NCBI GenBank assembly: GCA_009746045.1 | Contig: RPFO01000184.1 | Coordinates: 283,381-347,380 of the forward strand | DNA length: 64,000 nucleotides | Reading direction: 5' to 3' | Source: Mesostigma viride | Taxonomy: Eukaryota > Streptophyta > Mesostigmatophyceae > Mesostigmatales > Mesostigmataceae | Shown here: positions 28,981 through 62,261 of the stretch, in pieces | Layout of the letters: every line of letters starts with the position of its first letter | How positions within the stretch are numbered: position 1 is the first letter of the stretch | Translations under genes and position numbers: made by a program | Notes under the pieces: model-generated | Seen by the model: only the letters and a program-made list of their open reading frames with translations | What the model was told of the DNA's origin: nothing | The model's database searches: none

Positions 28981-29649
28981 CCCTGCCAGCCGTTAAGAAT
29001 GTACTCCAGCACAAGTACATTTTGAGTTTTTCCAAGTTTCTTGTTTTTTGCTTGTTTCAAGTTCAGTTTTGCATAAAAAGTGTCCCCATAGCCCCTGGAT
29101 CTCATCTGGAGGTAGTTGAACTAGTATATGCTACAATATACTAGGTTGTACTATTTTCTACTACATTTATACTATAATGTACTAAATTGAACTACATATG
29201 AACTAAATGTAACTGTGATTGATGCCCCTGTAACGTCTCCCAATGCTCAATAACAGGTCTGGCCACCATTGGTGACCTCCTAGAGCCATTCACAGCTGCA
29301 TTTCGTGGATCACCGCACAAAAAAAAAAAGTTTTACTTAGCCTTATCAACATGGGAATGAGGGCTTTGGTGTGCAAACATGCATGTGTGCTAAAAATTGG
29401 ACATTCTGACACTGCGCGAGAGTCTGGTAATACTTAAGCACTTCAGGTCATGATCGAAGTATAGAATGAACTGATGCAAGCAATCAAGCATTATGCAAGG
29501 AATGGAATGCTGCAATGAATTTTAGCAGTAATACTTGCAACTAGGGAACACACGATAAAGTCACGAATCTGACATGCATTGTGCCGTCATGGCACATGCA
29601 TGAACATGTACACGAACAGAGGATCACGCGGACGCCCACGTGCACGCGC

Positions 29650-31015
29650 ATGGCAATCCCCATGCCCCCCCCCCCACACACACACACAAGCCCCAACTCC
29701 AAACATTGCACCAATGACCCACCCACCCAAACCCAACCCCAGCCCCCCTGACCCCCCAACGCCCATGCACACGCCCATGCCCCCCCCGCCGCCCCCCCCC
29801 GCCCCCGCCCCCGCCCCCGCCCCGCCCCCGCCCCCGCCCCCGCCCCCGCCCCCGCCCCCGCCCCGCCCCGCCCCCGCCCCCGCCCATGCCCATGCCCCTG
29901 CCCCCGCACCCGCCCATTCTCACCCACGCCCACGCCCACGCCCACGCCCACGCCCACGCCCACGCCCATGCCCACGCCCACGCCCACGCCCACGCCCACG
30001 CCCACGCCCACGCCCACGCCCACGCCCACGCCCACGCCCACGCCCACGCCCACGCCCACGCCCACGCCCACGCCCACGCCCACGCCCACCCTAGCCTCAC
30101 CCCTACTCCAAGCCACAATTATACCCAAAGCCACAGCCAGAAGTAGAGCGCAGCTGCAACAATAGCAGACGTAGCTGAGACACACACCTACCCACGCCAA
30201 CGCCCACGCCCACGCTCACGCCCACGCCCACGCCCACGCCCACGCCCACGCCCACGCCCACGCCCACGCCCACGCCCACGCCCATGCCCACGCCCACGCC
30301 CACGCCACGCCCACGCCCACGCCCACGCCCACGCCCACGCCCACGCCCACGCCCACGCCCACGCCCACGCCCACGCCCACGCCCACGCCCACGCTCACGC
30401 CCACGCCCACGCCCACTCCACGCCCACTCCCACGCCCACGCCCACGCGCACGCGCACGCCCACGCCCACGCCCACGCCCACGCCCATGCCCACGCCCACG
30501 CCCACGCCCACGCCCACGCCCACGCCCACGCCCACGCCCACGCCCACGCCCACGCCCACGCCCACGCCCACGCCCACGCCCACGCCCACGCCCACGCCCA
30601 CGCCCACGCCCACGCCCACGCCCACGCCCACGCCCACGCCCACGCCCACGCCCACGCCCACACCCACACCCACGCCCACGCCACGCCCACGCCCACGCCC
30701 ACGCCCACACCCACGCCCACGCCCACGCCCACACCCACACCCACGCCCACGCCCACGCCCACGCCCACGCCCACGCCCACGCCCACGCCCACGCCCACGC
30801 CCACGCCCACGCCCACTCCCACGCCTACGCCCACGCCCACGCCCACGCCCACGCCCACGCCCATGCCACGCCCACGCCCACGCCCACGCCCACGCCCACG
30901 CCCACGCCCACACCCACGCCCACGCCCACGCCCACGCCCACGCCCACGCCCGCGCCCATGCCCACGCTCACGCCCACGCCCACGCCCACGCCCGCGCCTG
31001 CGCCCACCCTAGCCT
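29650..31015. repeat. (CCCACG)n and C-rich hexanucleotide tract, ~1.3 kb
   Basis: A poly-C/CCCCCG zone (29665-29890) leads into two long (CCCACG)n arrays (29920-30088 and 30190-31005). Between them is a ~100-bp unique piece containing ACTCCAAGCCACA, which is repeated after the second array (about 31020). The array-plus-unique-piece is therefore itself duplicated. All ORFs here are artefacts. Confidence 0.95.
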
Positions 31016-31273
31016 CACCCCTACTCCAAGCCACAAATGCACCGTAAGCCACAGCCAGAAGTACAGCACAGCAGCGACAATTGCAGACTTAGCCCAGACA
31101 CACACCTACCCACGTCAATGCCCCTGCCCAGAGACTCGCGGCCTCATCCCACCCCCCTGCACGAACAGTTCCCAAACAAAAGAAAAGGCAAACAAAAGGA
31201 ACAAGAGTAGCAAGCTGCATTGCGAGCACATATGCCAGTTCTGGTGCACATGCCAGGCCGAAAGCAACTCATG

Positions 31274-31446
31274 ATTGCCCCTGCCCCTGCCCCTGCCCCT
31301 ACCCCTGCCCCTGCCCCTGCCCCTGCCCCTGCCCCTGCCCCTGCCCCTGCCCCTGCCCCTGCCCCTGCCCCTGCCCCTGCCCCTGCCCCTGCCCCTGCCC
31401 CTGCCCCTGCCCCTGCCCCTGCCCCTGCCCCTGCCCTGCCCCTGCC
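31274..31446. repeat. (CCCCTG)n hexanucleotide tract
   Basis: About 28 copies of CCCCTG in a row, with one TACCCC variant near 31298. A variant of the neighbouring CCCACG unit. Confidence 0.95.
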
Positions 31447-32642
31447 ATCACCATTCTAACCACCACACATTACGAAAAGCAAGAAGAAATTATAATAATA
31501 ATAAGAAGAAATTATAAGAAGAAGAAATAATAATAATAAACAAGCACAAAGTTGACTGCACATGCGACTGTACCAGTTAGGCACGTAGCAAATTTTAGCT
31601 GCAGCTTCAATTTCAACTTCATTGCAATTGCAAGTGTGACTGCATGTGTAATTGCACTACCAATGCCTAATGCCCACTGCATGTGCCCAGTGCGAATGCA
31701 ATTCAAAAGCAACATGCAATCGAAATTACAGCTGAAGCCGGCTATTAACAAAGATATTTAAAGCAGTTGTTAACTACAGAGACCCAATGAAAATGCAAAT
31801 GCAATGAAAAAGCAACAGAAGTTGAAGCCACTGCCACTCTACCTGCCGACAGTAACACCACCGCCAGCACCCACTCATATCCCAACGACAAGGAAATAGA
31901 ATTGCCCAAAGCCAGACATACATTGGGACGCATAAGCAAACGGCAACGCAAGCGCACATGCAAATGTATACGCAAAGGCAAAGGCAAAGGCAAACGCAAA
32001 CGCAAACGCAAACGCAAGCTTGTCATGTACCTACGCTTAACTGCAAACGCAAACTGTGCACGAAGCAAAAAGATTGGATGGCCAAGATCATGGCAAATAC
32101 GAGGGCCGAAAACAATCCAACTTCATCTAAATGTCCGAAATCCTCACGACGTTTCGATGCGCGCTTGAATGTCGAAGGCCTGCGCCGATTATCGATCATA
32201 AGTCGAATGTGTAATTGTCGGCTTATGAGAACTGCTTTGCGACAGTATCACGTCAGGCCGTTCCTGTGCAGCCATTTTCCCTGTGCAGCGGGTGGACAAC
32301 GTTCACTTTCCGCATTATTCATGGCTATCGAAGTTAATTCTTACCGACCCCGGCTGCCATGGCCACTGGCCACGCATATCAAGTTCAGGTATTCCCGACC
32401 TGTAGCGCAGCAGATTTCTGTCGGAAGGCATCCTAAGCATCGTGATAAAAGAAATCCGAACAGTAGACATTCATGCTGCATCTAAGGACATTATGGCATT
32501 TGTATATACTGCAAGTACATGTATCGACATTGCCGTGATTGCTAACCCCGACTCACCATGAACAGGAACTTTCCCTCTGCCTCCATGAAATGTACTTCGT
32601 GAAATGTACTGTAATACATATGATGTACTACGATGATAATCA
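31447..32642. other. Non-coding stretch in TE-B
   Basis: It has a short (TAA)n/(GAA)n zone at 31490-31540 and a run of (GGCAAA)/(CGCAAA) hexamers at about 31970-32010. Otherwise the sequence is unique and I see no gene. Confidence 0.6.
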
Positions 32643-61043: not shown

Positions 61044-61286
61044 CCGTGACACCGTGCGCTTTCACCCCGAATTCACGAGAGCGGCAGCGATGGTGATCGC
61101 TGCCAAATGAGGTAACATGGGCTAAACAACTCGGGCAGACCGGGCTGGCGTGACATCCCGGTCTGCCATGTTTTATTCCCCCCCACACATGGCGTGGGGA
61201 TCTACGTTTGCCATCTGCCAACGTAGAAATAGATGGGGAGGGGGGGGGACAAATGATGTTTGCAACATTGCCCAGTTGACATAGCC

Positions 61287-61664
61287 ATGGCGAGACCCGG
61301 CGTTTTCATGGAGCCCAGTGCGGGGGCGCTGGGTTGGCAGGTTTTGGGAATGTTCTTCTTGCTATTACTCCTGGGCGTCGTCGTGTTCAATATGATGGCG
61401 AGGCGCGGGGTCCGGTTATCTGCAGCCGCCGTGTTGGCGAAATGCACCCAGGATTCGTCCTTGGCTGCGGCACTTTGCAGGGACTGGGACTGTGGTTGTG
61501 GCCGCCATTGTTTGAGAAGCGTGCATTTCGAGGAGCTCAGGACGATGAGGACCGACATGTGGTCTAAGAAGCCTGCGGATCGGAAAGAGTTTATAAAGAA
61601 CCAGCTTTTTCAGGCCGGCCAGCGAGAAACTGAAATCCCGGCAAGTGATTTCATGACAAAGTGA
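61287..61664 (+). CDS. TE-C membrane/Cys-motif protein (125 aa or first exon)
   Basis: ATG 61287 (context GCCATGGCG). Residues ~18-35 form a strongly hydrophobic helix (V-L-G-M-F-F-L-L-L-L-L-G-V-V-V-F), followed by basic residues. Then come W-D-C-G-C-G-R-H-C (C-X-C-X3-C) and L-R-T-M-R...D-R-K-E-F-I-K-N-Q-L. The order, spacing and the D-R-K...I-K-x-Q-L tail match the TE-B ORF at 33217, though overall identity is low. It could anchor a metal-binding domain at a membrane; its role is unknown. Confidence 0.55.
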   Translation: MARPGVFMEPSAGALGWQVLGMFFLLLLLGVVVFNMMARRGVRLSAAAVLAKCTQDSSLAAALCRDWDCGCGRHCLRSVHFEELRTMRTDMWSKKPADRKEFIKNQLFQAGQRETEIPASDFMTK

Positions 61665-61947
61665 TTTTGATGGTTGCTTGCATGCATATTAAGTGAGACA
61701 GCTATTCCTGGACGCATGGCGTGCCAACATATATAAGTTGTTACCAGATATTAATCACATGCCCTATTGAAGCGACGTTGGACCGCATAAACGAGGAATG
61801 GCTGAACTTGTCATGACCCGGCAAGGTACCTACACGCACAACAAGAATACATCAACATGAGACGATATATGGTGAGATGACCGAGATGTATGGAGAAATG
61901 AATGTCTCTACTAGGATTATTATGAAGGTGTATACGTGGTATTTGCG

Positions 61948-62140
61948 GTGTCACGGTGTCACGGTGTCACGGTGTCACGGTGTCACGGTGTCACGGTGTC
62001 AGAAGCATAGGTAAAACTTGCAATGACCCATTGAATACATCATCCCCATTAATAATCACTGCATACCTGCAAAGATGTGTGTTTATATGCATTTTGAGGT
62101 GTCACGGTGTCACGGTGTCACGATGTCACGGTGTCACGGG
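61948..62140. repeat. GGTGTCAC octamer clusters, right end of TE-C
   Basis: Two runs (61948-62001 and 62097-62141) of the reverse complement of the left-end octamer, giving inverted subterminal arrays overall. Confidence 0.9.
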
Positions 62141-62261
62141 TCCTATGAACTTCCCCTTCCTCAGAGACTTAAGTGGAAACTTTAAATTCAATAAAATACA
62201 ACTTTTCAAAATGAACTACAAATTGCGTGTTCTAGTACAAATCCAGACGAGCTTAGGGAAT

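Follow-up and report, generated by a model that had tools for sequence, protein, structure and literature searches.

What moves a large DNA transposon in which no transposase can be recognised? The question is raised by TE-B and TE-C, two insertions in a 64,000-nucleotide stretch of the genome of the streptophyte Mesostigma viride (assembly GCA_009746045.1, contig RPFO01000184.1, positions 283,381 to 347,380), hereafter called the window. A first reading by a model, made from the letters alone (the original prediction), had assigned both to one family of large DNA transposons that have polar ends and make 3-bp target duplications. Our analysis supports that description. We further conclude, at a probability of about 0.82, that TE-B and TE-C belong, as non-autonomous and internally reduced copies, to a large cut-and-paste family with a DUF7869 transposase, and that this family is not CACTA.

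Ends, target sites and copies

The end pattern CCCT-N15-TGTACT-N4-CAC occurs exactly four times in the window, at the two ends of TE-B and the two ends of TE-C, compared with a mean of 0.00 in 100 shuffles, which bears out the 32-bp inverted ends where they had been placed. Left and right ends agree at 30 of 32 positions in TE-B and at all 32 in TE-C. Exact 3-bp duplications flank both elements, GGG for TE-B and AAT for TE-C, and the host of each insertion is a Copia-type retrotransposon gene whose reading frame is restored once the element and one copy of the duplication are removed. In addition, the window itself contains insert-free counterparts of both sites: an uninterrupted Copia-type copy for TE-B (83-472), whose protein is 97.7% identical across the site, and a paralogue for TE-C (3645-4388), 61% identical. 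The claimed duplications and restored frames are thus confirmed by exact repeats and by insert-free copies.

The original prediction had proposed looking for further ends of this kind, and we searched the genome (440 Mb in 2243 contigs) with the strict pattern. It was found 386 times in forward and 403 times in reverse orientation, 789 in total, versus 4 + 9 = 13 matches for a reversed-pattern control. If most ends are paired, these strict-pattern ends would correspond to close to 390 elements. The pair analysis covered 100 of the 789 matches, which were assigned by eye to subfamilies B (56), C (21), D (10), B2 (7), E (3), F (2) and one other; 41 convergent pairs within 31 kb were recognised by eye and 40 of them were read (the pair at C2:3894925-3925191 was left out). 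An exact 3-bp target site duplication (TSD) was present in 39 of the 40, with 27 different triplets among them. Copies with duplications of other lengths, which according to the original prediction would speak against a shared family, did not turn up; the fortieth pair simply has none. Three further E-type pairs carry TTT, TTT and GTT, and an F copy (L020) carries ACA, as judged by eye.

Most elements read are 7-11 kb in size. Among the copies read, members of one subfamily share 97-100% identity, counted in substitutions along their best aligned stretch, which indicates that the family was recently active. We also observed a 480-bp repeat shared, at 94% identity, between a B copy (L010, element positions 6846-7325) and a D copy (L012, element positions 375-853) and absent from the sister copies compared; it is perhaps a smaller mobile element.

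A DUF7869 gene in sister elements and its remnants

The gene that TE-B and TE-C appear to lack is found in sister elements with ends of the same kind. Three B2 copies (L014, L015 and L017), each 8.9 kb long and differing from one another by 0-1 substitutions, carry a rightward two-exon gene of 1183-1185 amino acids and a leftward two-exon gene of 730 amino acids, both open, with putative splice sites placed by GT-AG and reading frame. The 1184-amino-acid product of the rightward gene begins with a cysteine-rich N-terminus bearing the motif CxCGxxC, continues into a DUF7869 core and ends in a long C-terminal exon. Judged from its sequence, this protein is probably the transposase, and B2 thereby probably represents the transposase-encoding relative that the original prediction had suggested seeking.

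Scores for DUF7869 (Pfam PF25273, gathering cut-off 26 bits) were 49.5 bits for B2, 46.2 for D and 54.1 for E, and all seven core proteins passed the cut-off (49.5, 46.2, 54.1, 53.9, 54.1, 53.3 and 60.5 bits). Genome-wide, 150 of the 150 loci scored, out of 275 candidates, exceeded it, and 14 control genomes contained no DUF7869 locus. Pfam assigns the domain no function, whereas here it lies within complete transposons with ends and duplications.

Each of the 13 B2-type loci listed (the 51-bit, 585-amino-acid type) is at B2 ends, 11 of them between paired ends. In 11 of these 13 loci the distance from the gene-defined left end to the start of the match is exactly 5124 bp; of the remaining two, one starts 6846 bp from the left end and one has the far end only. 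Conversely, 2 of 15 elements with B2 ends have no listed DUF7869 match (C1391:1591386, 4.2 kb, and one on C2213). The former (G000:C1391:1591386-1595597) is perhaps a short deletion derivative. The core also lies inside the ends in all four D elements read, with a broken frame in L012. The E score group comprises five loci. E elements of 10.9, 10.9 and 17.4 kb with TSDs contain three of them, the protein having been read for the locus in the 17.4-kb element (L085). In all 11 elements in which both the gene and the end type were read (4 B2, 4 D and 3 E), the gene is oriented toward the right end. A tree groups B2, D and E together (94/98) and separates them from families G, I, J and K (100/99), to be read with a long-branch warning. 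Two further loci, L082 and L083, practically one family, encode DUF7869 proteins with very long low-complexity tails rich in Gly, Ala and Arg that stay open to the end of the sequence read.

Four aspartates of the core, D349, D451, D490 and D492, are invariant in seven proteins of the genome, and they remain so in eight sequences when a homologue from another, eukaryotic-looking contig is included. The spacing of D349 and D451 is 101 residues and that of D451 and D490 is 38; between the second and third acids it is 38 or 40. By sequence, this pattern fits a DDD/E enzyme.

TE-B and TE-C retain recognisable pieces of the same gene (Table 1). TE-B keeps exon 1 to about residue 150 together with exon 2, and the stretch of 1036 bp that it lacks relative to B2 holds all four aspartates; TE-C keeps the cysteine-rich exon and nothing else of the transposase gene. 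The DUF7869 core is absent from all eight B and all four C elements read whole. The two elements looked empty because the core encoded by their sisters is missing from both. The original observation that no transposase is recognisable in either stands for TE-B and TE-C themselves; the core that they lack is encoded in B2. The gap in TE-B appears to be a deletion rather than an insertion in B2; such internal deletions are a known origin of non-autonomous copies. Separately, a tandem-repeat region of TE-C (window 57243-58104) matches, at 77% identity and in inverted orientation, the sequence immediately preceding the DUF7869 exon in a D element (L018); subfamilies seem to swap modules.

Polar ends and a model of their recognition

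Every one of the 40 pairs read consists of one left-type and one right-type end. In both ends, base 20 is where the first TGTACT site starts; this site is part of the search pattern and hence not independent evidence. The distinction lies further in. The direct repeats AAGTACATTTTG and ACTACAAATTG, noted in the original prediction, are indeed present inside both ends, and they represent a second site, a further copy of the TGTACT of the inverted repeat. What had been described as related sequence on the right turned out to be the same site in the same orientation. Counted as TGTA[C/G]T, the second site has the same layout in 15 of 15 elements, which represent six subfamilies: at the left end it starts at base 34 and is inverted relative to the first site, and at the right end it starts at base 39 and is direct. 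The asymmetry of the ends lies in the orientation and spacing of this site relative to the TGTACT of the inverted repeat. All eight C pairs show TGTAGT (ACTACA) as the second site on the left and right alike, a parallel change consistent with a single protein recognising both ends. Clusters of TGTACT/AGTACA are also found in the central palindrome of B and B2.

These features suggest the following model. In the fuller element, represented by B2, the palindrome is flanked by two divergent genes, the right one encoding the probable transposase and the left one a second protein with no assigned role. The transposase would bind TGTACT-type sites, namely the one at base 20 of each end and the second one at base 34 (left, inverted) or base 39 (right, direct), and the unequal second sites would let the synaptic complex tell the two ends apart. 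It would then cut at CCCT and insert the element with a 3-bp stagger at little-constrained targets, with D349, D451 and either D490 or D492 as the likely catalytic residues. Elements such as TE-B and TE-C would be mobilised in trans. In B and B2, the transposase may in addition bind the TGTACT cluster of the central palindrome and thereby regulate its own promoter.

Table 1. Features of TE-B and TE-C, in window coordinates; TSD, target site duplication.
Feature	Position	Strand	Remarks
TE-B, complete non-autonomous element, 8377 bp	28981-37357	+	Inverted ends, TSD, empty site
TE-B target duplication GGG, left copy	28978-28980		Right copy 37358-37360
TE-B left 32-bp inverted end	28981-29012	+	First site TGTACT 29000-29005
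TE-B left second site AGTACA	29014-29019	-	Inverted relative to first site (left signature)
TE-B central palindrome with TGTACT sites	32643-33257		297-bp arms, 100% complementary; overlaps start of putative transposase exon 1
TE-B putative transposase exon 1 remnant, N-terminus with CxCGxxC	33217-33690	+	90% identical to intact B2 over 147 amino acids
TE-B junction, 1036 bp of B2 gene missing	33711-33734	+	CCAC at both B2 breakpoints
TE-B open reading frame with putative transposase exon 2 (C-terminal half)	33999-35879	+	96% identical to B2 over 471 amino acids
TE-B 173-bp tandem repeats near right end	36576-37093	+
TE-B right-end second site	37314-37319	-	Orientation of the terminal site (direct pair)
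TE-B right 32-bp inverted end	37326-37357	-
TE-C, complete non-autonomous element, 7138 bp	55121-62258	+
TE-C target duplication AAT, left copy	55118-55120		Right copy 62259-62261
TE-C left inverted end	55121-55152	+	First site TGTACT 55140-55145, second site ACTACA 55154-55159
TE-C GTGACACC arrays, left subterminal	55236-55990	+	Reverse-complement arrays at right, 61944-62140
TE-C open reading frame in the place of the divergent second gene of B2	56697-57230	-	Short coiled-coil-like run (our own reading); no Pfam family
TE-C central palindrome	60759-61043		117-bp arms
TE-C putative transposase exon 1 remnant with CxCGxxC	61287-61664	+	36% identical to TE-B over 78 amino acids, E-value 4e-10
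TE-C right inverted end	62227-62258	-	Second, direct site 62215-62220

Weighing and placing the family

Several observations weigh against the assignment of TE-B and TE-C to a family moved by a DUF7869 transposase, or against parts of the model above. At the ends, base 23 is the position of an additional, overlapping AGTACA, on the left in D and on the right in F; an F copy has a right end without the CAC part of the pattern, and the C20 copy is the one pair of 40 without a duplication. No clear interior excess of TGTACT is seen in subfamilies C, D, E and F, which confines the support for regulation through the palindrome to B and B2. No autonomous C-type partner of TE-C was identified. Regarding the protein, an AlphaFold model built from seven sequences had a mean predicted local distance difference test score of 51.8, with the core mostly below 50, and is unreliable; comparison with solved structures by sequence gave only chance-level matches. 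Finally, the link between DUF7869, CCCT ends and 3-bp duplications covers B2, D and E and not the more numerous other DUF7869 families; ends of family J were not found in two 1.9-kb stretches. The other two loci of the E score group belong here as well, and they prove nothing, since the ends around one of them are 57 kb apart and the other is 21 kb from a single end.

Among the alternatives, one concerns the placement of the family and is compatible with a DUF7869 transposase moving it. DUF7869 could be a distant member of the IS630-Tc1-mariner/Zator/ISAzo13 assemblage, that is, a new lineage in a known supergroup, which we consider rather unlikely. The D core does match the ISAzo13 transposase model over the region of the second acid (E-value 0.047), the 38- or 40-residue spacing between the second and third acids is in keeping with it, and Zator elements make 3-bp duplications. 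Yet that match scores 12.7 bits, where the cut-off is 200, and was seen in one of the seven core proteins scanned, no Pfam DDE family was matched, and the proteins described here differ in their cysteine-rich N-terminus and very long C-terminal exon, as do most of the elements read in their size of 7-11 kb.

An improbable alternative is that DUF7869 serves as a passenger or regulator and that the elements are moved by some enzyme not yet seen. Neither the second gene nor exon 2 has an assigned function, and the role of DUF7869 itself is read from sequence. However, DUF7869 genes sit inside the ends of B2, D and E and run toward the right end in 11 of 11 cases, four aspartates are invariant across eight diverged cores, and the core is precisely the part missing from the non-autonomous B and C copies, all of which speaks against this alternative.

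We regard it as very improbable that the elements are divergent CACTA/EnSpm-like members of the CMC/CMCT clade whose ends drifted from CAC to CCC. The two-gene layout of B2 is reminiscent of En/Spm, and the 3-bp TSDs, the subterminal repeat arrays and, in B and B2, the sites resembling ends close to the start of the gene are all features that such elements would share. In contrast, the termini read CCCT..AGGG and not CA..TG, just as the original prediction had stated in reporting CACTA ends to be absent, the inverted ends measure 32 bp and carry the polar two-site arrangement, and the tests of sequence relationship were uniformly negative. The passages of PMC12730594 on CMCT lineages describe C(2)C and H(3-4)H between the second D and the last acid; no CxxC occurs between the second and third conserved acids in any of the eight aligned cores, by our own assignment of the triad. 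No Pfam CACTA, Plavaka or KDZ family was matched, with B2 and D scanned at E-values up to 1 and five other cores at up to 0.1. Profile comparison with a partial Plavaka-like protein of the window gave a probability of 0.2%, a weak test given that this side is a single fragment. The 3-bp TSD falls within the range of 2-5 bp of the CMCT clade and is not diagnostic. The Plavaka-like protein lies at window positions 12492-13523 on the minus strand, a partial match to the Plavaka transposase (PF18759) with an E-value of 1e-4 and 22 bits, below the curated cut-off of 26.3.

Other known groups were rejected. Plavaka had no Pfam match in the core proteins scanned. For PIF/Harbinger, the TNA/TWA preference is not seen, TAA (twice) being the only TNA triplet among 39 TSDs with 27 different triplets. 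KDZ transposases are cysteine-rich, and KDZ elements, which include giant transposons of algae and fungi, resemble ours in being large. Giant ones are reported from algae in the part of PMC12477816 that deals with them. No KDZ Pfam match was found in the proteins scanned, and the TSD is 3 bp, not the 7 and 8 bp that PMC12730594 gives, where it treats the KDZ group, for Kyakuja and Zisupton.

We further searched for relatives outside this genome. Protein searches with the B2 protein as query returned none, and a search with the core alignment returned three proteins, of which P0001 is identical to part of a locus named L093. P0002, from another source, has a cysteine-rich N-terminus and a DUF7869 core as in B2 and equivalents of the four aspartates; P0003 ends before the last three. 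A scan of genome contigs gave L093 as its single match (CAILMA010000604.1, from a Bacteroidetes bin). Its DUF7869 gene lies in several frames beside a gag-like open reading frame, and the contig is probably eukaryotic contamination of that bin. A prokaryotic or viral source was sought and not found: viral contigs yielded no relative with protein, alignment or end-pattern queries, and the sole contig from a bacterial bin looks eukaryotic.

A limited literature search, which did not cover Repbase, found no paper naming DUF7869 or describing such an anatomy; the group may be catalogued in Repbase under another name. We file the family as terminal inverted repeat transposons of an unassigned, possibly new superfamily. 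With somewhat less than even confidence, we suggest a broader view, in which DUF7869 defines an undescribed superfamily of eukaryotic cut-and-paste transposons that is not confined to this genome. An inverted pair of binding sites at one end and a direct pair at the other would distinguish the ends of its elements, and in some members the same site within a central palindrome would control the two divergent genes.

For a domain without assigned function, present in at least 150 places in the genome of M. viride, the analysis proposes both a role, that of a transposase, and the anatomy of the elements that carry it. The near-identical, open-framed, two-gene B2 copies represent a large transposon that is probably still active, and the paired sites at its ends offer a concrete, testable model of how a transposase may distinguish the two ends of its own element.

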